This document shows, one piece after another, positions 14,629 to 59,520 of a DNA stretch of 64,000 nucleotides (its first letter is position 1; each line of letters opens with the position of its first letter). The notes under the pieces were generated by a model. That model ran no database searches. It was given only the letters and a program-made list of their open reading frames with translations, and was not told where the DNA came from. The position numbers and the translations under genes are program-made. Source of the DNA: Ceratodon purpureus (Eukaryota > Streptophyta > Bryopsida > Pseudoditrichales > Ditrichaceae); NCBI GenBank assembly GCA_014871385.1, contig CM026431.1:8653964-8717963 (forward strand). The letters run 5' to 3'.

Positions 14629-15016
14629 TCAGGACATCACGGGGCCATTCTGGGCGACGCCCCTTGGGACATGGAACACGGCACGCCATCACCCAAAGCC
14701 GTCGCCGTACCCAACTCCCACCCGCTCATCTACACTTTTATAGATCCAAGAGCCTAAATTATACGTGGTAGGTAGATGATGGTGGTTCTGGACATAGTGC
14801 CGAATTTCAATATGCATCCTGGAAGGATGCATACCAAAACGCGTTACTACCCTCAGAACCACCATTATCTACCTAATACGTATATTTTTAGCTCTTGGAT
14901 CTATAAAAGTGTAGATGAGCAAGTGGAAGTTGGGTACGGCGACGGCTTTGGGTGATGGCGTGCCGTGTTCCATGTCCCAAGGGGCGTCGCCCAGACGGGC
15001 CCCGTGACGTCCTGAA
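14629..15016. repeat. 388-bp palindrome just upstream of NDX
   Basis: The left arm (14629-14820) and right arm (14823-15016) are near-perfect inverted copies from TCAGGACATCAC/GTGACGTCCTGA at the outside inward to the paired gaaccacc/ggtggttc. The centre is less well paired, apart from atgcatcc/ggatgcat at the tip. It could be a foldback/MITE insertion or a local inverted duplication of promoter-proximal DNA. No clean target-site duplication is seen. Its right edge is about 40 bp from the GA-rich NDX leader. Confidence 0.75.
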
Positions 15017-28360: not shown

Positions 28361-29966
28361 AGCTCACTTCACCGTCCTTTTGAGGACTCTTTAACAAAAC
28401 TACATGCCAGGAGTAAATATCCAGAGGCTAAATCAACGAGTTGCGTTAAATTAATGGCGGAGAAGAGTACATATCGCTGCTAATCCCTCGGAACAATGTA
28501 AACCGTTCTAGCTAACTCGTACGTGGCTCCTTCAGAACTTTGAGTAGAGATTAAGTGCAGAGGCTAATGAAAATGTAATTAGGGTCGTCGGAAAAGAGGT
28601 GACTACTCCTGAATATCATGCGCGATCACAGCCACACTGAGTCATGGTTTAGAAGCTGTCTTGATGAACACGCCCATGGTTACTAAATGAAGGTGCAATT
28701 GTATGTTCCTGCAGAACATGGATGCTCGATGTCTACTGCTTTCATTTTACGGTTTCTAATGAGATAGTACACTAAAGCACATGATAGACAGATACTTCGG
28801 GTCAGGTCATGATAACTGTATGTTCAAAATTTCCATAGCCACCTCCAGCCACACCCTTGAAACATATCTAATCCGACAGTTGCAATCTGGAGTTCCTTCA
28901 GCTGTTCAATATCATTCAGATTAACCAAGCAAAATATTCCAAATCAACTTCACTCACCCCAAAAATCGCAACGTCGCAGGTACAAATCTTTAGAGTCGGC
29001 GATCCACTTCAGACAGCTACTGAGCTGGAATCAGACGAAACAAGGAGGCGAACTTTAATGCGGTGCAACATTGTACCTCAACCTTAACCTGGAAAACCAA
29101 TTCACCATCTAGTTTATCGATATAATCCACGAAGTTGTCGCAGCTTCCTGAAGTTTCAATGTTCAACTACACAAAACACAATACCATCATATTTCAAGTT
29201 CGGAACACACAATGCAATAATCTACAGAGCATCATATCCTTGTTGAAAACATATACCTCACAATGAGCTGAGCAAGACTAAAGCGGTGGATGCACATATA
29301 ATCAGCTGGAGACTTACAAGAGAGTATGGCGAAGTCCGAATCTCCAGATCTTTGGCCTGTAAGTTTATAGTATCGATGAAACCTGTGTGAGCTATCAGTT
29401 AGCTCTGGCCGGTGGTGTAAGATGTGTAAGCTGGCGCGGAAGACGCTTGGGAGCCGAAAGTCGCAGGGGAGGACACGGAATGGGTGTCAGAGACACAGAC
29501 TGAGATGGGGATTTGCCACCCACTGTCCAGGTGCGGCGGCATTGATGGGATGAGCAATGCTTGAGTTAACTTGCAGTACTAACTCCACCTTAAGTTAGCT
29601 TTACGGCATGCTGATGGGTTGATCATACAGCTTATGCACGAGATCATTACAGTGGTCCAATGATTAAGTCACAGCATTACCCTCAAGCGTGTGAATGCTG
29701 TACACAAATATCTGAAAATGCGTAATTCTAATATACATGGTCACAAAATGCATGATTTGATTAATACAGGAGTATTACACTAGTTGAGGTGCTGTTGCTG
29801 TACAGTTAGTGAATTGAATACAGAGCCTGAGTATCTAGATGAACTTGTCAGGTGTCTTTTCAACATTATGAAGAGTTCAGTGTTAAGTTAATATTAATTG
29901 AACGTTGCAAGAGAATTGAGAGTGGTAGAAGCTACTGGAAACTTTGAGTTGGTAACTCAGATCTTA
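28361..29966. other. Lipase upstream region and spacer; no further gene seen
   Basis: Moderate GC with many short stop-interrupted frames. It should contain the lipase promoter and perhaps more leader exons, but no motif is clear enough to place it. Confidence 0.4.
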
Positions 29967-30084
29967 GAGCATCCACACCGGTCCGCAGCAAGCCGGGACT
30001 GGGCTTCATATTCAGGGTTGCCATTGGTTGGCACCCCGAATATGAAGCCCAGTCCCGGCTTGCTGCGGACCGGTGTGGATGCTC
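29967..30084. mobile_element. PIF/Harbinger (Tourist-type) MITE, 118 bp
   Basis: Perfect 47-bp inverted arms (29967-30013 and 30038-30084) start with GAGCATCCACACCGG and are flanked by TTA on both sides (29964-29966 and 30085-30087). A 3-bp TTA target duplication and a GAGCATC-type terminus are typical of plant Tourist/PIF-Harbinger MITEs. The identical arms suggest a recent insertion. Confidence 0.88.
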
Positions 30085-30087
30085 TTA

Positions 30088-33995: not shown

Positions 33996-34728
33996 TTCAC
34001 GAGAAGAACTAAAGTCAAGGTACAACTTTGCCTCTCCCCTAGATTTGAAAGCTCTATGTTTTGCCCCACTAAACCCTCTTATATGTTTCTCACACTCCTC
34101 CTACGTAAGATAAATCCTTGGACAAAGCCCCCTTCTTACTACATAATCCCTTCTTCCTTTCAAAGCCAAAGCACCATCCAAACCTCAAAACTCCATCACA
34201 AGACTTAGTTGTTTCACTTCTGCACTCACTTGACTTAACCTTGACTCACTTCTCCCTCTTTCTCCAAATTCTTCTTTGCTTCCACAAAAGTTCAACAATT
34301 GAACAACGTCATGTCAAATATGACATCACCTAGTTTTTGAAGAACAATCTACATCAACCAATTTTCCAAAATCAAGCAGATTTCAACCTGCAACGAGTCT
34401 ACTTCAATCAGAAAATAAAGTTTAAGTTGAAACATCTTCAATTACTCAAAAAAATGGGCCTTCTTCATTTCATCACCAAAACCAAACGACATTGCAAATC
34501 AACTTCAACAATGTACATATTCAGAAACCCCACCTATGATATTCACAAACCCCACCTATGATGTTGAATGTATATCAACACTTCTCATGAGTGCGCTCTC
34601 TAAATACAATGAGGGCAGGTTTCCACATGGGGATTGGTGTGGGCAGCCGATACTCAAAAAGGAGGAACCTCTACAGAAATGGGTGGAATTATGAGGATTC
34701 AAGATGATAAATTTCATTTGTATCAAAG
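33996..34728. other. Spacer after the Copia remnant
   Basis: Short ORFs rich in Leu/Ser/His without recognisable domains. The Copia element's own 3' non-coding tail may be here, but no LTR is identifiable. Confidence 0.4.
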
Positions 34729-35400
34729 AGGAGGAGCACAATAAAGTGGACCAAAAAAGTGCTTAGCTATTTGTCAATTTCAGCCTTTTTGTAAAAATTG
34801 TACAAAAGTGATGGAAAGATGTTATTGAAGTCAATTTTTTTTGCTAATATAGATTTTCAACTTGTTTTTCTACAACTTAGAAAAGTTTTGTGCAAAGCAG
34901 ACACTCTAAAGTTATTGTATGAGGGCTTCAAATCCAAGCAAAGTGAATGCAGTCATTTGAAAAAGTAGCTAAAAAAGAATAAAAAACTATCTAAAAATCA
35001 CTTTTGAAGAAGTGGTGCCTTCTATATATTTGAGAGGTATTTTCAAATAGACAATTTATATACTCAATAATTGGTTTAGGGTTCTAAAAGTACCGGAAGG
35101 ATGTTCTTTAAGAGGGTCACTTTAGCGGTACTTTTTGTGAGTTTCTTTTCACCAAACATTGTTTTTTAAATTGGAAAAAACATCTTTTAAAGACAATGGA
35201 GCGCAACAAATGAGGAAATTAAGACTTTGGAAAGGTTCATTTTTATGATTTAGAACTAATGGTCAAATTAAGTTTCAATTGAACATGTTCCTTTAATGTA
35301 GATATGTGTGAGATGCCTTTGACATCCTAAAAAGTGACTAAAATGCTGAAAAACTACACCAAAATGCTCAAAATCAACTTTAAGCTTTAAATTCATGTTA
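34729..35400 (-). mobile_element. Truncated third copy of the 738-bp MITE, inverted orientation
   Basis: It begins with a diverged terminus (gaggaggagcacaataaagtgg, compared with GGGGGAAGCACAATAAAGTG in the intact copies). It then reads as the reverse complement of the copies at 46825 and 47728: ggtttagggttctaaaagtacc, then aacattgttttttaaattgg, then caccaaaatgctcaaaatcaac. The last stretch of roughly 60-90 bp with the other terminus is missing, and the sequence stops at the left arm of the palindromic element at 35401. Confidence 0.7.
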
Positions 35401-36509
35401 ATATTCATAAGGTGGGAAATATATATTTCTACAAAATATAAGAGAAGACAAGTGAGATAATATAATTTCAACAAGTCATGTGTCTTTATATACTATACTC
35501 AAGCGATAAAAATAGGAAAGATGTTTTTGAAAGTAAATTACACCTCATAGTTAGAATTATCTTTTTTCATGTAAACACAAATTGTTTTTAAAAAAAAATT
35601 TAAAATGAAGACTTGACTTCCAAAATAAAAATAAAAGTTAATAAATACTATAGTGAAGCGATAAAAAATAGAAAAGATGTTTCTAAAAGTATAATACACC
35701 TTAAATTTAGAATTATCTTTTCTTCATCGACACAAATTGTTTGAAAATAAAGATAAGTGAAGATTTGACTTCCACAATAAAAATAAAAGTTAGTAAAACA
35801 AGTCATTTGTCTTGATATACTATAGTCAAGTGATAAAAAATAGAATTGATGATTTTAAAAGTATAATACACCTTCAATTTAGAATTATCTTTTCTTCATG
35901 TGGACACAATTTTTTTTTTAAATTAAGATAGGTGAAGATTTGACTTTGAAAATTAAGAAATTAAAATCAAATTAAAAATCTCTTATTTAAAATTTGGAAT
36001 TTGGAATGTAGAATTTGGAATTTGCAATTTGCAATTTGGAATTTGGAATTTGCAATTTGCAATTTGGAATTTGGAATTTGGAATTTGCAATTTGGAATTT
36101 GGAATTTGGAATTTGCAATTTGCAATTTGGAATTTGGAATTTGAAATTTGGAATTTGAAGTTTTACAGATCATGTAACAGAGAGTTTGAAAGTGAGAATA
36201 ACATAATAGGAAATAACAAAGGTAAATCAAAAATCAATCCAATTTCAAAGAAACATATGAAGAAATCATTTCAAAAATAAAGTTTTATTAAATTATTTAA
36301 ATATCATTTCTTAAACCTTTTCAATTCAGATGTATTATTGTAAACCATCTTCTATTTTCTATCATTTATCCCCTTTTCTAATACTTTTTTAGCCTCTTTC
36401 TCTTCTTTACGTTGTTGTACCAAGACACTCAGTGCAGCCATTTGCCTTTTTAATTTTTCACAAGCTGCTTTAATCACTTTTTCCTTTAAAACTAATGCTA
36501 TTCCAATTT
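35401..36509 (+). repeat. Left inverted arm of the dioxygenase element
   Basis: It contains three subterminal direct repeats, then an array at about 35989-36160 of the heptamers AATTTGG and AATTTGC. Its inner end is the reverse complement of the last ~160 bp of the dioxygenase gene. The stretch 36361-36509 is therefore an antisense copy of that gene's C-terminal coding sequence. Confidence 0.8.
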
Positions 36510-36705
36510 TCAATTGTAGTTTTACTTTTAGATGTACTTTTATTTTATACTTTTAATTTATTTTTTCAATGTTTGTACATGTTTCTCTATGTTTTATATC
36601 TTTAGTATATAGACTTATTCTTTTTATATTTCTATATTTTATTTATTTCAATACATATTTATTTTATTGATACTTGTGTTATTGAGATAAATTCATATTA
36701 TCAAT

Positions 36706-37965
36706 ATGACAACCCTTCAATTTCCTAGACTTTGTGAATGTGGAAAATATTTTACGAGTCCTAAAGAGTTTGATGACCACAAGGGAGGTAAGTTTCATGA
36801 AAAGTGGGCTTACTTGCTAAGATGCAAAACTTAGCTACTACTAGTAAACCTACGAGTGAAGATGATGTTAAAATTAGTATTCATGAAAGTGAAGTCACTA
36901 CTGTTATTCCTAAAAATAGTGGTGATGTCTCTAAATCCACTGACAAAAATTGGAATATGTTTTTGGGAATTGAAGAATCTTTGAAAATTATAGAATCACT
37001 TCGAAATGATGGTGTTTCAATCCCAAATGAAATTCAACATGTGATTAAGGTTGGACCTTACTCAAAATTCAATAGAAAGGATTATGAGGAAAATCTATTA
37101 CAAATGTCACAAGTTTCTAACTCTTCTATTTTTTATAAAAATAAAAAATTTATAGGCATGGTTCTTTTTAACAGTCTTGAAGAGAATATAAGTAAGGAAT
37201 CTTATAAGAATTTGAATATAATATATAAAAATAGGGGTATAGTAGCCAGGGGCAATACCATGGGATGATAGGAGGAGCAGACATGGTTTTAATAGGATGG
37301 AAGTATATTACTGAAACATATGATTTTGGGGAATACATACATCCAGGAAGATATGCAACACTTATTAATAAATTTCCTCCAGAATTATTAAGTGAAATGG
37401 GAACGACTTGGACATCATTGGTATTTAAAATACTACAATCTAAATTTTCTTCATGGATGAATGAATTAGAAGTACTACATCCAAATACAATACCGAACTT
37501 TTGGTGTAAAGTTGGATGTAGTCCGTTTTCGCTTTTATCTATAACAAAAAATTATTATGTGACTCCTCATATTGATGTTACAGACACACTCCACGATCTT
37601 ATAATTTGGTTTGGTTTTATAATTTGGTTTGGTTTTATAATTTGGTTTGGTTTTATAATTTGGTTTCAATCCGATAACAATACACGTCATGGGGGAGAAT
37701 TTATATTTCCAGAGTGGAATATATATATTAAACCTCAACAAGGCACGATATTAATGTTTGATTCCTCTAAAATATATCATTATACTAGAGAAACTTTGGA
37801 TTTATCCAAATTGGAATAGCATTAGTTTTAAAGGAAAAAGTGATTAAAGCAGCTTGTGAAAAATTAAAAAGGCAAATGGCTGCACTGAGTGTCTTGGTAC
37901 AACAACGTAAAGAAGAGAAAGAGGCTAAAAAAGTATTAGAAAAGGGGATAAATGATAGAAAATAG
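36706..37965 (+). pseudogene. TET/JBP-like 2-oxoglutarate/Fe(II) dioxygenase, reading frame broken
   Basis: Family members oxidise 5-methylpyrimidines in DNA; activity here is inferred only. The ATG at 36706 opens a segment with CECGKYF...DDH, a C-x-C-x12-H-x5-H zinc-finger-like pattern. It is followed in other frames by 36822-37268, 37265-37819 and about 37807-37965. The third segment has the double-stranded beta-helix signature: SLLSITKNYYVTPHID (the HxD iron ligands), GGEFIFPEWNIYI and the distal His in KIYHYT. The last segment supplies the closing strand IGIALVLKEKV and a Lys/Glu-rich coiled coil ending at TAG 37963. The frame moves by -1 at about 36810-36834, 37235-37262 and 37800-37812. 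The first shift could instead be a 47-nt intron (36788-36834, GTAAGT...TTAG). The 18-bp in-frame repeat between HxD and GGEF is also abnormal. TET/JBP genes are known in fungi, algae, protists and animals, often expanded with transposons in fungi. Confidence 0.62.
37601..37668 (+). repeat. 18-bp tandem repeat inside the dioxygenase ORF
   Basis: ATAATTTGGTTTGGTTTT occurs three times exactly with a fourth partial copy. It encodes IIWFGF repeats immediately after the HxD motif and stays in frame. Confidence 0.95.
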
Positions 37966-38867
37966 AAGATGGTTTACAATAATACATCTGAATTGAAAAG
38001 GTTTAAGAAATGATATTTAAATAATTTAATAAAACTTTATTTTTGAAATGATTTCTTCATATGTTTCTTTGAAATTGGATTGATTTTTGATTTACCTTTG
38101 TTATTTCCTATTATGTTATTCTCACTTTCAAACTCTCTGTTACATGATCTGTAAAACTTCAAATTCCAAATTTCAAATTCCAAATTCCAAATTGCAAATT
38201 GCAAATTCCAAATTCCAAATTCTACATTCCAAATTCCAAATTCCAAATTCTACATTCCAAATTCCAAATTCCAAATTTTAAATAAGAGATTTTTAATTTG
38301 ATTTTAATTTCTTAATTTTCAAAGTCAAATCTTCACCTATCTTAATTTAAAAAAAAAATTGTGTCCACATGAAGAAAAGATAATTCTAAATTGAAGGTGT
38401 ATTATACTTTTAAAATCATCAATTCTATTTTTTATCACTTGACTATAGTATATCAAGACAAATGACTTGTTTTACTAACTTTTATTTTTATTGTGGAAGT
38501 CAAATCTTCACTTATCTTTATTTTCAAACAATTTGTGTCGATGAAGAAAAGATAATTCTAAATTTAAGGTGTATTATACTTTTAGAAACATCTTTTCTAT
38601 TTTTTATCGCTTCACTATAGTATTTATTAACTTTTATTTTTATTTTGGAAGTCAAGTCTTCATTTTAATTTTTTTTTTAAAAACAATTTGTGTTTACATG
38701 AAAAAAGATAATTCTAACTATGAGGTGTAATTTACTTTCAAAAACATCTTTCCTATTTTTATCGCTTGAGTATAGTATATAAAGACACATGACTTGTTGA
38801 AATTATATTATCTCACTTGTCTTCTCTTATATTTTGTAGAAATATATATTTCCCACCTTATGAATAT
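37808..38867 (+). repeat. Right inverted arm of the dioxygenase element
   Basis: The inner 158 bp are the sense C-terminal coding end of the dioxygenase. The rest mirrors the left arm. Its heptamer array (about 38159-38280) is about 50 bp shorter than the left one. Confidence 0.8.
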
Positions 38868-39520
38868 ATTTTACAAATATATTTCAAATGTTTGATAACT
38901 TGTGTTTTTATCAAACCTTTGAAATATATTTGATGATAGGAGGCTTTTTAATGAAGACTTTTTAATGAATATATTTGAAGACTTAAACATATTTGGAGAT
39001 TGATATGTTTTTTATGAATATATTTGAAGACTTACTTTTACTTATATATATTTCATGAAGATGTATTTTATAAATTCATTTGTGGGTCTTTAATTTTCAT
39101 TTTTGAATCTTCAATTTTCATTTTTTGAATCGTTATTTTTCATTTTTGGATCTTCAATTTTCATTTTTGGATCTTTAATTTTCATTTTGGATTTTCAAAG
39201 ATGAGATTTTGGTCTATGTACCTCATATCTATGTATAATCTTTGACTTTCCATTTATGATTTTCAACCTTCCATTTATGATTTATGATTTTCCATTTATG
39301 ATTTTTAAGCTTCCATTTATGATTTTGAATCTTCCATTTATGATTTTGAATCTTCCATTTAGGATTTTAAATCTCGCATTTAGGATTTTTGATCCCCGGG
39401 TTTCCTTCATTGAAAAATTCTTATGAGCACTTTCCTTCCGGGCTCTCTTTTGTTGAATTCTTCATAGAAGGGCTTCCTCCTCCTTCAATATAAACCGAGC
39501 AAGGATTTTAATAGATCAAG
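38868..39520. repeat. AT-rich spacer with simple 20-21-bp repeats
   Basis: An imperfect inverted repeat surrounds 38870-38930 (aatatatttcaaatgtttgata and its near complement). At 39090-39190 the phrase TTCAATTTTCATTTTTGGAT recurs, and at 39250-39380 TTCCATTTATGATTTTGAA recurs about six times with variation. No gene is seen. Confidence 0.6.
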
Positions 39521-39545
39521 GGGCTGTTTGGAGGAGATGCGGTGC

Positions 39546-39606
39546 AGATGCACTAAGGGCGCCCAAGGGGGCGAGGATGCTCTAAGGGCGCCCAAGGAGG
39601 CGAGGA
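39546..39606 (+). repeat. 30-bp tandem duplication
   Basis: Two adjacent copies of a unit reading CTAAGGGCGCCCAAG followed by (G/A)GGCGAGGATG. They sit at the front of the SINE-like segment. Confidence 0.8.
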
Positions 39607-44291: not shown

Positions 44292-45236
44292 CTACACAGG
44301 CGGTACAGACTTCTCCATGCCTCCGGCCTGCGAAAGCTTCAACTCCGCAGCGTCACGCTCGGCGTCTCTCTTCCACTTCATCCTCAGAACGATGAAAGCC
44401 GCCAAGACAAACACCCAGTACATGATGTATGCGGCAAGAGTACCTTTAGTAGCCTCATCACGCCATCCCACAATCGCATTCAGAATCTTCCAAATGCCAT
44501 CTTTCTTGTGGTGGCAGCAATGCAACTTCCACAGAATCGCCTCGTTCTCAGTGTACTCCTCAAACTCATGAACCGCGCCCGCGAAAAGCCCAGCTGCAAT
44601 CAAAAACAACAGCGCAGTAGAGAACACAAGAAACCACTTGAACCCGACCTGGCTGCAGCCCTTGTAAAGCAGGTAACCGGCGAGGATTCCACAGAGAGCG
44701 CCCACGATTGCGGGAATTGGAATTGCGGTGCCAGAGCCGTCAAGGCCAACTCCACCAAGAAACACAACAGCCTCAACACCCTCCCGAAGCACAATGCTGA
44801 GTGGCAACAGAAAGAGAGCGTATTTGCTGCGCTTGCTTTGCACCTCCCCTTGTTTGTTTAAGGTTTCCACTGTCACCTTCGTCAGCTTCTTCTCCCACTT
44901 AGCCCTCCACGTATCCACTCGAATCATCGAAAATCCCATGATAGTAATCAGCACCACTGCAATGAGCGACAGAATCCCCTCCCACAACGGCTCACTGCTC
45001 TCCCACGCCTCCTTCGCCACAGTATAATACAGCGAGATGAAAATGGCAGCAATCACCATGGATAACAACACTCCAATCACCACCCCGTACCACACATGCT
45101 TCTTCATCCGCCGCCGCATCACACTGTCCGACACGATGCTGTCTATCAGCACCATCATCACAGACAGTATAATAGCCGCCTCCAGGGTCTCCCTGAAGAG
45201 GATGAAGAACGCCGGAACACTGAATAGCTGCACCAT
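44292..45236 (-). CDS. FTR1: FTR1/Fip1-type high-affinity iron permease, single exon
   Basis: Predicted seven-helix membrane permease. In fungi and algae FTR1 partners a multicopper ferroxidase and takes up Fe(III). The 314-aa ORF has no intron. Motif RETLE (residues 15-19) lies in the first helix and REGVE (151-155) in a later helix; these R-E-x-x-E sites are the iron-binding signature. An acidic HEFEE (223-227) sits in the loop after the sixth helix. Hydrophobic stretches fall at about 4-31, 50-72, 88-105, 139-163, 172-192, 199-221 and 267-285. The start MVQLFSVPAFF aligns with the usual fungal N-terminus. The Cys/His cluster CCHHKK (240-245) in the last loop and the basic/acidic C-tail are extra observations. 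No ferroxidase partner is in the window. Transfer from fungi is possible but needs a phylogeny. Confidence 0.92.
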   Translation of the reverse strand: MVQLFSVPAFFILFRETLEAAIILSVMMVLIDSIVSDSVMRRRMKKHVWYGVVIGVLLSMVIAAIFISLYYTVAKEAWESSEPLWEGILSLIAVVLITIMGFSMIRVDTWRAKWEKKLTKVTVETLNKQGEVQSKRSKYALFLLPLSIVLREGVEAVVFLGGVGLDGSGTAIPIPAIVGALCGILAGYLLYKGCSQVGFKWFLVFSTALLFLIAAGLFAGAVHEFEEYTENEAILWKLHCCHHKKDGIWKILNAIVGWRDEATKGTLAAYIMYWVFVLAAFIVLRMKWKRDAERDAAELKLSQAGGMEKSVPPV

Positions 45237-45270
45237 CTTGATCGATCACACAAACACAAACACACACAAC

Positions 45271-45336: not shown

Positions 45337-46074
45337 AACACTGAACCCGCATTCGATGAGCTCACCGATCAAGGACTGTACTAGAAGCCACCTCCCGTAC
45401 ACATACCAGTACAACGGAAGGACTGTGGCTGAATATATTGAATTCGAGTGCTGGATTTATTTTTTCAGTTCTACCGATATGTCTTTATAGTGATTCGATG
45501 CCGTGCGAGAAGGAGCTCCAGAAGTGCTTATGGAAGCGACTTCCGAAGTGGTTTTGAGCAGGCCACAGCATCCGGAGTCGGGAGCTCGGGCCCGCAGGCA
45601 TCCCGCTTCGGGCCCAGTGGGGGCGTTGACGAGGTGGCGGGCGAATGGGGCGAGGGGCGGGGGCGACAGGAGTGTGTCCCGGAGTTGACGAGCAGGTTGT
45701 TTATAGGAAGCTGTGTGTTTCCGGGATGTGTAGTTGGGGTGATGAATGGGCGGCACGCACGGACATCACCTGGGCGTGTGCCGCCTGCGTGCTCCGCTCC
45801 GGCGTCGGACCTCGGGGCGCTGGAGGCTGCAGGTCCGCCTCCTGTTGGATCAACTTGGATGCGGTGTTGTTCATGTTTTATGTTATATTTATGTTTATTT
45901 GTTTTGGCATAATTTAATTGCTGGATATGCAAATATAAATCTAGCCAGTGACGGTGAGGCAAAGGACTGATACCAGGGCCACACCAAAAACCCAAGCGGC
46001 TCCTGTCACCAGAAACATTAGACTTTAGTGTTACATATTAGAGTTATTTGTAAAGGCATCCGGTATTTGACTTA
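45337..46074. other. GC-rich FTR1 upstream region
   Basis: The stretch 45480-45850 is clearly GC-richer than its surroundings and open in several frames on both strands at once. That points to composition rather than to a gene. It is a candidate promoter/CpG-rich region for FTR1. Confidence 0.4.
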
Positions 46075-46361
46075 GATACCATGAGTTTTGCTTTATTGTA
46101 TAATTTTTTTTACTTCAAATAGTTGGGAGGCATGGAAGAACTTGGTGGTTTCACTAAATTCGGTGTGTAAGAGCTTGGTGGTCTCTAAACTCAAGGGAAA
46201 CTAGTATTGAAAGATGGAATCACGGCAAAATTAGTTTCCCTTGAGTTTAGAGACCACCAAGCTCTTACACACCGAATTTAGTGAAACCACCAAGTTCTTC
46301 CATGCCTCCCAACTATTCGAAGTAAAAAAAATTTATACAATAACGCAAAACTCACGGTATC
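46075..46361. mobile_element. Foldback element with 130-bp arms
   Basis: The left arm (46075-46204, starting GATACC) and right arm (46232-46361, ending GGTATC) are inverted copies with very few mismatches, around a 27-bp loop. The outer flanks (actta and ttttt) give no firm target duplication. The structure fits a foldback MITE, or an inverted duplication able to make long double-stranded RNA. Confidence 0.85.
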
Positions 46362-46824
46362 TTTTTAAAGCACAAGGTGACTTTAAGGATAACTCTATTC
46401 TCTGAAAATATTGGGTTAGGATTTCAGTTGGCTAGAGTTAGTGGAGTGGCTAGAAGTAGGGGTAACCTTGCAACTTACAACTCCAGCCAACTGGAATCCT
46501 AGCCATATATTTCTAGAGAATATGTAGGGCTAGTGAGTAGAGCCGCTGAGAATGTTGGTGTAGCCTGGTATAATATAGAACATTGATGTTGTTCATTCAA
46601 GTAGAGTTAGAGAGAGAAGAACTCCGGTTTCTTTTAGTAAAGAATTGGTGTAAATTAAGTGTCTTTATTTTTAAGTATTTTGAATTTACGTCTAGTGGTT
46701 ATTAAACCAAAAGTACAAGATTATGCTATCCATTAGAAGGTAAACACTATATGCATATTTTGTGTGTTCTGTGTTTCTAGTTTGCATAGCAATATAACTG
46801 TTTTGGTGTGTTTTGATTGCCAAT
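46362..46824. other. Spacer, nothing recognised
   Basis: No ORF with a domain. A small palindromic impression (ccagccaactggaatcctagcc against gatttcagttggctagag) is seen at about 46420-46505. Confidence 0.4.
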
Positions 46825-47562
46825 GGGGGAGAACACAATAAAGTGGACCACAAAGTGCAAAATGTGACCATCAACAAGTGAATATGAAGTGCGCTGTTTT
46901 TTAAGGCTCAAAGCTAATTTTGAGCATTTTGGTGTAATTTTTGAGCATTTTAGTCACTTTCTAGGGTGTCATAAGGTATCTTATATACATCTTCATAAAA
47001 AAAACAACTTCAATTGAAACTTAATTTGACCACTAGTTCTAATTCATGAAAATGAACTTTTCCAAAGTCTTAATTTCTTCATTTGGAGCCATCTATTGTC
47101 TTTAGAGGATGTTTTTTTCAATTTGAAAAACAATGTTCGGTGAAAAAAAACGCACAAAAAGTACCGTGGAAGTGACCCTCTTAAAAAGTATCCTTGCGGT
47201 ACTTTTAGAACCCTAAACCAATCAATGAGTATATTAATTGACTATTTTAGAATACTTCTTAAACATACAGAGTGCACCGCGAAATTAAAAGGATTTTGGA
47301 CAAAACCCTAAACCGTTATGTTTACTTTTCTGAATGACGACCATTCACTTTGCCTGACTTTGACGTCTCCGTTTTCCATTGTAAACTCAACATCTTCTTC
47401 CACAAATTTGGGAAGTTGAAGAAGATCAAGTCTACTTTCCGTATCCCAAACTTAATTTTGCATCAACATTACGTAAATCCCACTTTCTCTAGTCTTTACA
47501 GAAGGGGCTGAAATTGGAAAAAAGATAAGCACTTTTGTGGTTCACTTTATTGTGCTTCCCCC
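46825..47562 (+). mobile_element. 738-bp non-autonomous DNA element (MITE family copy 1)
   Basis: The inverted ends are GGGGGAGAACACAATAAAGTGGACCACAAAGTGC-like at the left and its complement with a few changes at the right (ending GCACAATAAAGTG complemented, then CCCCC). The interior matches the copies at 47728 and 34729 (tttgagcattttggtgta, then aacttcaattgaaacttaa, then atgaaaatgaact). There is no coding sequence. The flanks ccaat/tcaat resemble a short target duplication but are not identical. Confidence 0.85.
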
Positions 47563-47727
47563 TCAATTTAAAAAAGAATAACATATCATTCTATAGAAAA
47601 AATTGGAGAATCTACACATGGATTACATTCCATGCATAAAATGAAAAACTTAGTTGAATGCTATAGGTTCTAGTCCCGACGTCGTTATTGGTCTTGCACC
47701 TTACTGTAGAGAGGACCTCTTGGTTTT

Positions 47728-48465
47728 GGGGGGAAGCACAATAAAGTGTACCACAAAGTGCAATATGTGATGACTAAGAAGTGAATATGAAGTGTGCTGT
47801 TTTTGAAAGCTCAAAGCTGATTTTGAGCATTTTGGTGTAGTTTTTGAGCATTTTAGTCACTTTTTAAGATGTCGTAAGATATTTTACACGCATCTCCATA
47901 AAAAGAACATCTTCAATTGAAACTTAACTTGACCGCTAGTTCTAAATCATGAAAATGAACTTTTTCAAAGTTTTAATTTCTTCACTTGGGGACCTCTATT
48001 GTCTTTAGAGGATGTTTTTTCCAATTTAAGAAACAATGTTCGGTGAAAACAACCTCACAAAAAGTTTCACGGAAAACAGTGTTTTAAAAAACGTCCTTGA
48101 AATACTTCTCGTGCACCCAAACTTTCATTTCAAGTGGTCATTGCCATTTATACATCCGCAATTCACAAACGGAGATCCCGGTGGAGTCAAAAGTGATTTC
48201 CGACAACATTCGACATTGTTCTTATCACTTTTTCAAATGTGGACATTCACTTTGTCGGACTTTGAGGTTCTCGTACAGCATTGTAGAAGACGCAAATTCG
48301 TACCATATTTTCCCACACTTTAGAGAATCAAGTCTATTTTCTAAACCTAAACTTCTTCCCAACATACCAACAACCGAGATGCCACTTTCTTATGTCTTTG
48401 CGATAGGGGCTGAAATTGACAATGAGCGGAGCACTTTTTTGGTACACTTTATTGTGCTTCCCCCC
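47728..48465 (+). mobile_element. 738-bp non-autonomous DNA element (MITE family copy 2)
   Basis: Same length and orientation as copy 1, 165 bp downstream of it. The ends are GGGGGGAAGCACAATAAAGTG and the inverted CACTTTATTGTGCTTCCCCCC, flanked by TTTT on both sides (possible 4-bp target duplication). The ORFs within have no domain and arise from the repeat. Confidence 0.88.
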
Positions 48466-54839: not shown

Positions 54840-57800
54840 TTATGCATCGTCAATCGCATTAGGTACGGGAATCACTGGAACTGCTGCCTCGTCGTTGGGG
54901 ATGTCGTCCTCTGAATCGGAATGGATGTGGTCCGTTTGCATGTAAGCTGCTTCTTCGTCGACCTCTTCGTGTGCCATGACATGCACCACGTCGGCCTCTA
55001 GTACTGGCTGCCTCTGAGGCTCAGCTGCAGCCTCGCCTTGTCCTCTAGCAATGTTAAGCTCGGTGGCAGTGGTCCGACCTGGTGCGCTAAGAGAAGCGTC
55101 TGGTAGCCCATCAGTGACCCGCCGTGATCTCGGCTCCTTGTACCTCACAACCTTCCATTCTTCATTGTATGGATCATCGACAAAATAAACCTGTTCGGCA
55201 TTGGGTAGTCCATAATGACGACTGTGATAAGTGATACGATGCTCATGATGCAATTCAGAGGTTCAGCTTAGACCGGAATGCAAACATTGGGAGACTGTAC
55301 GAATGAAAGGGAATTGCGTCGATTAACTGACCTGACGGGCATGTGCGGCCATGAGATACGGCTCGACGTCTGCACTCTGTCGAGCAGCGTGTTTTACGAG
55401 CCAAAAACCGTCTTGGTCTACTTTGATTGTCGGCTCCCCTGCGAGATCAGGCTTGATCCATGAACACCTCAATACGTTGAACTTCAAATGTCCGTAGTCA
55501 ACGCGCAGTATGTCCTTAATAATTCCTACATAAAGGAGCTCCGACTCAATTTGGTTCACATCCGACACTGAAGAACGGCAGGTTTGGTTTATGATGGCTG
55601 CCACTCCAGCGTCGAAGGTTACGTGTTGTTTCCCGTCCTCTTCGTCAGTTCTGAAGTGGTAGCCGAAAGCCCACATCGAGTTATGATGCTTTACGTACGG
55701 AGACGGAAGTCTGGACATAGTCACCAGATCTGGAGAGGGGTTATGACCATCGATTCCCATTTGACGCACTCTCTCTTCGATCCAGTCTGCGAATGGAACG
55801 AGTCTCCTTGGATTGCGACCCCTAAGCGATCTTCTTTCCTCTGAGAAAATACTGCAACAGAAACGGCTGTAGAGTTAAACAGTACTCTACGTACTCGTTT
55901 TAATAACAGTTAGAGCACTCTTTATTTAGTCACCAATGCGATGACACTGACCCAAACAGTACGCATGAGGGTAGCATACCTATAGAGGTCCTCCGTGTGG
56001 ACGCAGTGACGCAAAACATGTTCGTGAAGTTTCTTCAATTCAATGTCGTCCCAGAATTGCTCACGACCCTGCCCCTCCATCACCTCCCCTGCGTCCTGTT
56101 CGTCTTCTTCCATGTCCCAGAGTAGTCTCGCAACTCCTGGATACATTTGGAAATGCTCTGTGACGAATCCGATGGCTTCCGTATACATATAACCCTGGGC
56201 AATGGATCCTTCGGGTCTGGCCTTATTACGCACGAGGCTCTTCAAGTGACCTAAGTACCTTTCCACGCTATACATCCAGCGGGCATGAACGGGCCCGCAC
56301 CAGTAAAGCTCCCTTGGCAAGTGAAGTACGAGATGGGGCATTATATTCCAATACGCCAGTGGGAAGTATATCTCCAGCAGAGAGCAAGTTTCGGCAATGT
56401 AGTTCAATAAGTTCGGGAGCTCACTCACGGTTACTTGTTTCTCGCAAATCTTCTTGAAGCAGTGCCCTAGTCGAATAACAGCTACCCGAGGTCCATCTGC
56501 GAGCGACCCTCTCAAGGCGGCAGGTAACACCTCCTCTAGAACAACATGCCAGTCGTGGCTTTTCATGAACTGGAACTTCCCTTTATCCAAGTTAACTACC
56601 TTCGACAAGTTCGAACAGTGACCAGTCGGTGTTTGAACATTCTTGATCGTCTGTAGGACTCGTCGTTTCTCACCGGGGCTAAGAACGTAGGGTGCCTGCG
56701 GCATCAGGTAGCTATCGGTTAACTCATCCCGCACAAGATGCAGACTAGGCATGACCCCTTGATCCTGTAGGTCCTTTCGCACGGCTATCGTGTCTTCTTC
56801 ACCGAGTAAAAATCCAGTAATTGTAACCGCTATATTCTTTTCCACATGCATGACGTCGAGTGTGTGCCTAACTGGAAGTTCCTATTCACAGCACCATGAA
56901 GAAAGTTGTGAGACTTCAGCTGAAAATATAAGAATGGGGGATCAGCAAGCACGACTGACCATTGCACCGAGAAACATAGTCTGCTACATATTCATCTGGT
57001 CACACAGTACCAGATCATGCGCAGGTGAGCATCGACATGTGCAATTCATGTCGTCGAACAGCATGATCATATAATCCAATTCCAGCAGTCATTATACGCT
57101 ATCTAAGAGAACAACATACGCTAAATGAATGGTTAGAAGTCCCGGTGGACAGAGCCTGGTAGTTCGAACCCCATTCACCAGCAAGTTTATCGACACCGAA
57201 AAAAAAGGCTGGGCTAAACTTCAATGACATATGTTAAGACAGCTACATCACCCCGACGTCTAGACATAGAGTCCCAAGTGATCATGACATGAAGCCACTG
57301 GAGCCACACAATATCGAGACGTCGAAGACAACATGTGCAGACTGTAAACAAGGATCAGGGGCGGCTCAGTGGCACTCTTACCTTCCAGTAAGGAAGCCTA
57401 TATAGTGAGGAAACTCGCTTGATGCCGTGCCTTCTGACGGGGTCATTTTCCTTCGGTCTTCCATACTCTCTAAGCCACCTGACACGCTCCTCTCCCCTCT
57501 GCAATGCTTCACTTCCGGTAACGGGAGTAGGGGCCACTCGGTGCTCCTCATCTATGAAGTTTGAACTGTCGCCCCTGAAGGGATGGTCTGCCCTAACAAG
57601 GAACCTGCGGGCACATCCACAGAAGACGTTCTTGTGTAAAACCTTAGAACGCCGTGATCTAAAGCCCTCCCCGCACACTGGGCAGCCAACGAACCCATTG
57701 GTTGTGCAACCAGCTAAAACGCCGTAGGCTGGGAAGTCGCCAATTGTCCAGATGATCATCGCCTTCAATATGAAATGAGACGACTCCTTATAACGGGCGA

Positions 57801-59520
57801 CATCCATGCAGTACACCCCTTCTTCCCAAAGATGTAAGAGTTCTTCAATCAGTGGCTCCATATAGATATCGAAGTAATCAGCTGTTACGGATTTAGGACC
57901 CGGGATTAGGATCCCCAACATAATAAAATAATTCTTCGTCGTAAGCCACGGTGCAATGTTGTAGTTCATGAGGAGAATAGGCCATATAGAGTAAGTACTC
58001 CTCTTGTCTGCGTGGGGGTTGAATCCATCTGTAACAAGAGCCATTCGCACGTTTCTATCGTCATGGCCAAACTCTGCATGAAATCTCTCCGAGATCCACT
58101 TCCATTGCGCTGAGTGAGAGACATGAGACATCACACCGTCCGTGACTGCGAGGGTCGCCCACCATGTCATTGCAGCTGCCTGAAGAGCACTTCGAAACAT
58201 CCGTTTGAGTCGCGGAGTAAGAGGGAAGGCCCTCGTAACCTTGAACGGCACTTCTGATCTCCCTGCTCTTCTTTTTCTCGGAGCCCTGCAATGTGGACAA
58301 ACACGAGCGTCCTTCAGGTCCTTCCGATACAGGCAACAATTGTTGGGGCAGGAGTCGATTGACTTGTAAGTGTGGCCCAACTTCCTCAAGTACTCGGATG
58401 CCTCTCTGTAAGTCTTGGGTAAGGTATTCGGCTTAGGAAGAATGGTAGTGCTTAAGGTCCGGAATAGCTCATCCAGGTAGACGTCGGAACAGCCGTGCAG
58501 CTTTCCACTACTTAGAAGCACATACGTCGTTCCCATGCTAGAGTATTCTGATCCTGGGAACAAGGGAGTAGTCGCTGCCTCCTCTAGGGCCGCGATGGAA
58601 GCGTCTGTCTCGTCGTCAGAGTCTCCCCACTGGTGCGCCCCCTCGTCTCCAGAGCTATCATCAGAAACGTCGACTGACGGTGCATCGGAGATGTCACGGC
58701 CGTCTTCACCTGCTGCATTACCTTCCTCGCGTAAGGGGATTGCCGAGTCACTGCTTCTCTCCGGACTAGGAATCCCCCCACCCCGACCTGCTCCTACGGG
58801 TGATGCTCTGTTCTCCTGCCCTAAGTCGTCGCTGACTCCATTCGGAAATCTCTGTTGGTGCGGATCTCCTCTCGGATGCTCTCCAGCATGAACCTGGTCC
58901 ACCATCACCTCTTCATGAATTCTGTCCACGATATCATGAGCTTCGACTACCATCTGCGTCACATCAATCCCCGGGTCTAAATCCCTCCGCCGTAGTGCGT
59001 TTGGACGCATTCTCGCCTGCGCTCCATAGTACCACGTAATGTGGTCCTCCCACTCGACGTCGGAGTCGTCGTCCTCGTATCCCTGGTACAACAGAACATC
59101 TTCGACTGTTAGGCAGGAGGTGCTTCATGACATGCGATATCCCAATTCATAGCATCAACCAATCGGTATTGTGTTCTTCTACTGTGCATGGAAGGTGAAG
59201 GCTCTAAGTGAATTTTCAGAATTCGAGTTCCTGAGTTGTCGTGGTTAATCTTACATATGAGCACCACATCAACACACGAAGGAAAATATGAGACATACCT
59301 CTGTCCTTCCATAGAACCACACATGCCTTCCATTATCCCTCAGGCATCTCCGGTATGAGTCGAGAGTGAGTTCCGCCTCCCGCATGTGGATTTGACATGG
59401 ACATGGCAGTTTCGTCCAACTCATCCGCCTCGCGTACGCCAACTCCCGCCTGAGTAATTTCGCTCTCCGAGACAGGATGCGAGCCTCCCCCGGTGGATTC
59501 CTTCGAATGCCCTCTTCCAT
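54840..59520 (-). CDS. CACTA/En-Spm transposase (tnp2 family), apparently intact
   Basis: DDE-type transposase that would excise and insert CACTA elements. Exons in transcript order: 59520-59299 (Transposase-associated domain, with LPCPC and W-F-Y-G-R-T-E), about 59097-57382, 56881-55980, 55851-55332, 55190-54840. The last three joins are phase-consistent; the exon 1/2 join is not settled. The second exon has an acidic N-part, a zinc-knuckle-like CPNNCCLYRKDLKDARVCPHC and the tnp2 core (DGFNPH, YSIWPILLMNYNIAPWL, LGILIPGPKS, TIGDFPAYGVLAG, GCPVCG, PYWK). Exon 3 is the DUF4218-type region (LDVMHVEKN, HDWHVVLEEVLP, YWNIMPHLVLHLPREL, RWMYSVERYLGHLK). Exon 4 is the DUF4216-type region (GIIKDILRVDYG, KVDQDGFWLVKHA) and continues into exon 5 (VYFVDDPYNEEWKVVRYKE), which ends in an acidic tail. 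About 1,230 aa and no in-frame stop, so it may be active or recently so. Confidence 0.88.

Follow-up and report, generated by a model that had tools for sequence, protein, structure and literature searches.

The 64,000-nt stretch of the Ceratodon purpureus genome analyzed in this work (hereafter the window, in whose numbering arm and gene coordinates are given) contains, between positions 35401 and 38867, a broken gene for an enzyme of the TET/JBP type, together with two inverted arms of about 1.1 kb. In our preferred reading, which we hold to be probable, this is the dead copy of a widely spread gene akin to that for CMD1, the 5-methylcytosine-modifying enzyme 1 of Chlamydomonas reinhardtii, which adds part of the vitamin C molecule to methylated DNA, and the arms were made by a recent inverted duplication of the gene's 3' end and 3' flank onto its 5' side. 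The arms, the lesions of the gene, the multi-copy family to which it belongs, its intact paralogues and the conserved active site are matters of observation.

We propose that the gene, encoding a CMD1-like DNA-base dioxygenase of the TET/JBP type, has dispersed to many sites of the moss genome. At the window locus, a segment that begins in the last codons and takes in the 3' flank would have been duplicated and placed, inverted, on the 5' side, yielding the two arms. In the intact copies, the zinc-finger-like N-terminus would engage DNA, while the core would flip out and modify 5-methylcytosine (5mC). The benefit might lie in freeing the gene's carrier DNA from methylation, by analogy with the transposon-borne TET genes of fungi as presented in the excerpted text of PMC12730594. 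A bolder version, according to which mosses harbor mobile, multi-copy CMD1-type enzymes that bind DNA through a zinc finger and use ascorbate to turn 5mC into 5-glyceryl-methylcytosine (5gmC), as selfish genes pitted against silencing, strikes us as distinctly unlikely.

A broken gene copy

A sequence-only reading of this DNA had described an element flanked by terminal inverted repeats (TIRs) whose only gene bears an HxD...GGEF...H signature. That gene is found where it was placed, with H-I-D starting at 37568 and the distal His at 37778-37780. Its layout comprises an N-terminal CxC...Hx5H zinc-finger-like motif, the dioxygenase core and a Lys/Glu-rich C-terminus. Lesions were called against an intact relative (locus L021, 420 aa, uninterrupted), and with three frame breaks and an early stop the window gene is real but broken:

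36706-37965, plus strand: single-exon TET/JBP-like pseudogene as far as its early stop, with similarity to the intact relative extending to about 38010
36808-36815, plus strand: 8-nt frame-breaking insertion
37263-37270, plus strand: 8-nt frame-breaking insertion
37568-37585, plus strand: H-I-D-V-T-D codons, with two Fe ligands and the Asp aligned with CMD1 D350
37595-37648, plus strand: 54-nt in-frame tandem expansion of an 18-nt unit, between HxD and GGEF
37778-37780, plus strand: distal His codon, after GGEF
37790, plus strand: 1-nt frame-breaking deletion directly before the right arm
37963-37965, plus strand: early stop codon (CAG in L021), 18 codons short of the intact relative's frame end

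An in-frame 24-nt difference near 36906 reflects an extra repeat in L020 and L021 and was discounted as a lesion, since the repeat is lacking in L022 and L023 as well as in the window. A gene model that placed a 47-nt GT-AG intron at position 36788 was also dropped after the intact copies proved intronless. The relatives being single-exon genes, no exon joining is needed in the window gene, which is a single frame interrupted by lesions.

A dispersed multi-copy family

When the genome (151 contigs totalling 362 Mb, one of which measures 110.5 Mb) was searched at the protein level, at least 113 matches were returned, with 100 of 393 candidates scored, and these merge into at least 63 loci spread over contigs C1-C13 plus C49 and C55, the window and a duplicate of it on C49 counting as two. 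Stops are present in about half of the match rows. The gene is dispersed and multi-copy in a plant, which supports this part of the earlier interpretation. Intact open reading frames occur in the window subfamily at L021:7260-8522(-), corresponding to C4:3387762-3389021 (420 aa), and at L042 on C5 (414 aa), and also on C3 (361 aa) in a separate subfamily at 32% identity. Loci with open frames are listed at C4:3387762, C5:4133375, C3:11037415, C11:7967372, C6:69210175 and C6:35505562. Over 412 codons, L021 and L042 differ by 0.186 non-synonymous (dN) and 0.657 synonymous (dS) substitutions per site by NG86, with a dN/dS of 0.28 by this method and 0.10 by YN00, and pairs inside the young subfamily give ratios of 0.42-0.80. 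No gene copy aligned contains introns. Some of the more distant matches, such as those at C2:20031383-20031940, C12:8275018 and C6:18869046, start or stop at query residue 307, as if an intron were present in a further subfamily.

The intronless state of all copies compared also agrees with a dispersal by retroposition or segmental duplication, with no dedicated element, in which copies would land widely and subsequently decay. We regard this account as possible, but do not favor it. In its support, L020 and L021 have 2.7 kb in common at 98.6% identity with no termini found, and a 1.98-kb unit bearing a divergent TET-like gene (L040:1672-3647 and L041:981-2935, on C3 and C11, respectively) is 94% identical between its two copies and has sharp ends, yet no clear TIR or target-site duplication. 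Seven TET-gene fragments (residues 272-380) are, moreover, arrayed in tandem at C2:5970373-5978820, with a period of 1353 nt. Nonetheless, neither a poly-A tail nor a target duplication was seen at the few boundaries inspected, and 63 loci over all of C1-C13 are many for passive dispersal.

Origin of the inverted arms

The inverted arms reported by the sequence-only reading are present exactly where it located them. Its statement that they enclose the gene holds for the HID...GGEF...H segment, which lies between the arms, but not for the last ~50 codons, which lie inside the right one:

34725-35391, no strand assigned: truncated copy of another repeat in the left flank (fuller copies at 46824-47562 and 47727-48464)
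35401-36509, minus strand: left arm, 1109 nt, inverted copy of 37808-38867
36352-36509, minus strand: part of the left arm in which the last ~50 codons of the gene recur in antisense
37808-38867, plus strand: right arm, 1060 nt, with the gene C-terminus, 3' flank, a minisatellite and related repeat units at 156-172 nt spacing
38868-39374, plus strand: outward continuation of the right-arm sequence, common to other loci and without counterpart beside the left arm

Aligned with each other, the arms show 7 substitutions and 49 gap columns, a likeness far beyond chance, and all substitutions but one (at 35599) fall within the AATTTGG minisatellite. The arms are thus near-identical, while the window copy differs from L020-L023 by a dS of 0.108-0.162, and this near-identity would fit a recent inverted duplication. 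An arm query matched 36 other loci, 20 of which (L020-L039) were fetched and compared. In all 20 the homology crosses position 38867 (in L030 by merely 49 nt), and this position is therefore no more than the end of the left-hand copy. Inspection by eye revealed no target duplication at the outer arm ends, 35401 and 38867. The repeat in the left flank is cut at 35391, and the ~75 nt missing from its end do not reappear to the right of the arms, which argues against a simple insertion. An empty-site reading, in which 210 nt of left flank and 200 nt of right flank were joined, was rejected, as the interrupted repeat was not recovered. This repeat belongs to a family about 740 nt long whose ends, near GGGGGAAGCACAATAAAGTG...CACTTTATTGTGCTTCCCCC, mirror each other and of which the window holds the two fuller copies and the truncated one listed above.

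The only other locus with both arms, among 40 of 160 candidates scored, is C49:30593-34052, on a 46-kb contig. Colinearity with the window extends over 9.5 kb (99.86% identity), flanks included, and this locus has the same state at all four lesion sites checked; hence, it is a duplicate of the window locus. With no target duplication, with arm ends inside a longer repeat and with a duplicate contig as the sole other two-armed copy, the description of the locus as a TIR-flanked element is not supported. The sequence-only reading had named the absence of further copies with these arms as the mark of a one-off inverted duplication, and such an absence applies to the arm pair within the candidates scored, but not to the gene, with its 63 loci.

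Alternatively, the arms might be what is left of a long-armed element, foldback- or Harbinger-like and now degenerate, that carried the TET-like gene as cargo on an ancestor with long arms at both sides; in the window copy the left arm would have been shortened by ~530 nt at its outer end. In that case the enzyme would ride on, and protect, a non-autonomous element mobilized in trans. We judge this unlikely, even if it can draw on several lines of evidence. Arm-like sequence with constant outward polarity is present in all five window-type loci whose flanks were compared (the window and L020-L023), lying downstream and direct in L020 and L021, and upstream and inverted in L022 and L023. In addition, the arm core recurs as the central part of a non-autonomous family of 1.88 kb that has short TIRs (termini GAGCATCTGCACCGCA). 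The ends of 13 of the 16 loci fetched were inspected (the right end of L026 is incomplete in view and L037 is without a left end), and 11 of the 13 copies have matching 3-bp TNA duplications, read by eye, which we take as a pointer to a PIF/Harbinger label. One terminus of this family occurs in the window, with no matching left terminus found there:

39538-39553, minus strand: terminus with one mismatch to the TIR GAGCATCTGCACCGCA of the 1.88-kb family

DDE_Tnp_4 transposases, furthermore, are plentiful in the genome, all 150 of the candidates scored (out of 596) lying above the cut-off. On the other hand, both arms are seen solely at the window locus and its C49 duplicate among the gene loci compared, no target duplication marks them, and the termini of the 1.88-kb family, with up to three mismatches, were not found in L020-L023. 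Upstream coverage is about 1.3 kb each in L020 and L021, and a left arm may lie farther out in these. The scored DDE_Tnp_4 match closest to any of the 63 TET loci is 22 kb away, beyond the 20-kb limit applied; this is a weak test, as about one locus was expected inside the limit by chance and 150 of the 596 candidates were scored. A genome search for the KDZ transposase (PF18758) returned no matches, and since none of the 14 control genomes matched either, its absence is unproven. Arm-derived sequence is also found at L020:1-5018 (C6:72287000-72292017, on the 110-Mb contig), where a 515-nt unit is repeated in tandem near a TET copy, with at least nine complete units and part of another.

Assignment of the enzyme family

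Taken together, the members of the family resemble TET/JBP enzymes, and their nearest solved structure is CMD1. Against Pfam, the window piece alone gives E-values of 0.032 for 2OG-FeII_Oxy_3, 0.14 for 2OG-FeII_Oxy_6 and 0.17 for Tet_JBP (PF12851, curated cut-off 34.9 bits), and in the PDB it matches CMD1 (E 0.0014). Tet_JBP is the best match of L021 (E 9.7e-4, 18.8 bits) and the sole one of the divergent L040 (E 1.5e-7, 31.2 bits, below the cut-off). A Tet_JBP profile search of the genome yielded 8 matches among 59 candidates, one of them above the cut-off (C11:7967873, 35.9 bits), and no match in any of the 14 control genomes. In the PDB, CMD1 is matched with E-values of 5.6e-8 by L021, 1.5e-4 by L040 and 1.7e-11 by a three-paralogue profile, which finds nothing else under E 0.4 and does not match TET2, NgTET or CcTET up to E 10. 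The TET/JBP assignment made from sequence alone is therefore upheld in part, by the best match of L021, the paralogue that passes the Tet_JBP cut-off and CMD1 as the sole credible PDB match; it is the divergent paralogue, and not the window subfamily, that passes, and L042 prefers 2OG-FeII_Oxy_3.

That the nearest solved relative is CMD1 may point to the green lineage, but few TET relatives are represented in the PDB. The N-terminal C-x-C...H-x5-H motif has a weak zf-met match (E 0.036 in L021 and 0.013 in L042). Viral contigs were scanned twice to look for a viral origin and yielded no relative, with short exact peptide patterns that are blind to distant relatives.

Active site and predicted activity

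Residues were paired through the HMMER alignment of the L021 protein with CMD1, and the roles of the latter's residues are those given in the excerpted text of PMC7854593. The Fe ligands H291, D293 and H343 pair with CMD1 H345, D347 and H397, and D296 pairs with D350, which contacts N4 of 5mC in CMD1. The triad and D296 are present in 7 of 8 copies, the remaining one (L023) being broken in its last part and carrying D296N. Likewise, S281, T283, V288, I302, W304, F317 and T345 pair with S335, T337, V342, I356, W358, F371 and T399, all of which contact vitamin C in CMD1. According to the same excerpts, W358 sits where an Arg of TET2 and NgTET1 binds the C5 carboxylate of 2-oxoglutarate (2OG), and it is given as one reason why CMD1 cannot use 2OG. 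The corresponding W304 is retained in 7 of 8 copies, with a stop codon in its place in L022, whereas this position is taken by M or F in two 2OG oxygenases of phages. The equivalents of W304, T283 and T345 are found in all three aligned paralogues, none of which has an Arg at positions 10, 13 (CMD1 R410 by count) or 15 past the distal His. R187, which may be the equivalent of CMD1 R244, is invariant in four aligned sequences and replaced by Q in the broken L023.

This pocket, with its W358, T337 and T399 equivalents and no Arg at positions 10, 13 and 15, suggests a CMD1-like enzyme with ascorbate as co-substrate, a role for which ascorbate seems more likely here than in the classical TETs. Since the equivalents of D350 and W358 are kept, an ascorbate-using, CMD1-like activity constitutes a prediction open to test. 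It is very unlikely that the enzyme is instead a 2OG-using, prolyl-hydroxylase-like protein rather than a DNA-base enzyme: in the window subfamily, 2OG-FeII_Oxy_3 does reach scores close to or better than those of Tet_JBP, PHROG_61 2OG oxygenase is matched at E 7.6e-7 and the phage matches, which are weak, are annotated as 2OG-Fe(II) oxygenases, but CMD1 stands alone as a credible PDB match, D296 and W304 agree with it, one paralogue exceeds the Tet_JBP cut-off and both phage proteins aligned lack W304.

Evidence against the preferred reading

Several observations weigh against the interpretation put forward here. As regards the enzyme, the window subfamily falls below the Tet_JBP cut-off (18.8 bits for L021 and 13.2 for L042), and L042 scores better with 2OG-FeII_Oxy_3 (E 0.011) than with Tet_JBP (E 0.051). 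An AlphaFold model of the L021 protein, built without an alignment, had a predicted local distance difference test score (pLDDT) of 35 and was discarded. In the divergent L040 and L041, S281 is replaced by G and V288 by A, and L040 has extra Arg residues 4 and 7 positions past the distal His, so that a 2OG-binding Arg masked by an alignment slip is possible in this paralogue. Moreover, CMD1 R244, H249, S414, F416 and R418 lie outside the HMMER alignments. As regards the arms, their identity alone is compatible with gene conversion or recent transposition, and the lesions bear no date. L022 and L023 carry inverted arm-like sequence (84-85%) upstream of the gene, which a long-armed ancestor would explain as well. 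Finally, broken copies compared with L042 also have low dN/dS (0.29 for the window, 0.34 for L022 and 0.33 for L023, codons with gaps or stops being left out). Because broken copies share it, the low dN/dS should be read as a mark of constraint along the older lineage, and is no sign of present use of the intact copies.

Comparison with known systems

The usual view is that land plants demethylate their DNA through glycosylases. Iyer et al. (PNAS, 2014) reportedly described TET/JBP genes that had passed laterally into some Viridiplantae, and the presence of such genes in plants is not claimed here as new. Many-copy TET/JBP genes in fungi and CMD1 in an alga are also already known; the novelty lies in a many-copy moss family of CMD1-like genes with a putative zinc finger.

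The window subfamily has the same Fe triad as CMD1 (PDB 7cy4-7cy8; PMC7854593, excerpted text), an equivalent of D350, and matches for the pocket residues W358, T337, S335, V342, I356, F371 and T399. In contrast to CMD1, the moss protein, known from sequence alone, adds the N-terminal zinc-finger-like motif and the Lys/Glu-rich C-terminus, and its gene is multi-copy and dispersed. As to its putative product, a 2025 paper describes 5gmC, in the excerpt available, as unreported outside Chlamydomonas (PMC12458080). The TET/JBP genes of fungi ride on DNA transposons, including KDZ, hAT, Harbinger, EnSpm, Helitron and others (PMC12730594, excerpted text). The likeness to these lies in the many-copy family within a single genome, whereas the moss copies show no link to a transposase and have CMD1 as their best solved match. 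The non-autonomous, PIF/Harbinger-like 1.88-kb family, for its part, has the arm core sequence in common with the window, but the copies compared, unlike the window locus, have no match to the dioxygenase gene. The moss family would extend to a plant what is seen in fungi, where TET genes multiply as mobile elements do, and intact CMD1-like genes would bring the questions raised here to direct test in a laboratory plant.

Other features of the window

The window also holds a plant NDX homeobox gene with a Nodulin_C domain, as well as an iron permease match and a transposase of the CACTA type:

44292-45245, minus strand: FTR1 iron permease match, 317-aa open frame
55323-59124, minus strand: tnp2 transposase of the CACTA type spread over several open frames, with DUF4218 and a piece of DUF4216 that scores below threshold

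Three self-complementary hairpins were observed in addition, at 14629-15015, 46039-46397 and 29966-30085, with 387, 361 and 121 aligned nt, respectively, at 86-93% identity.

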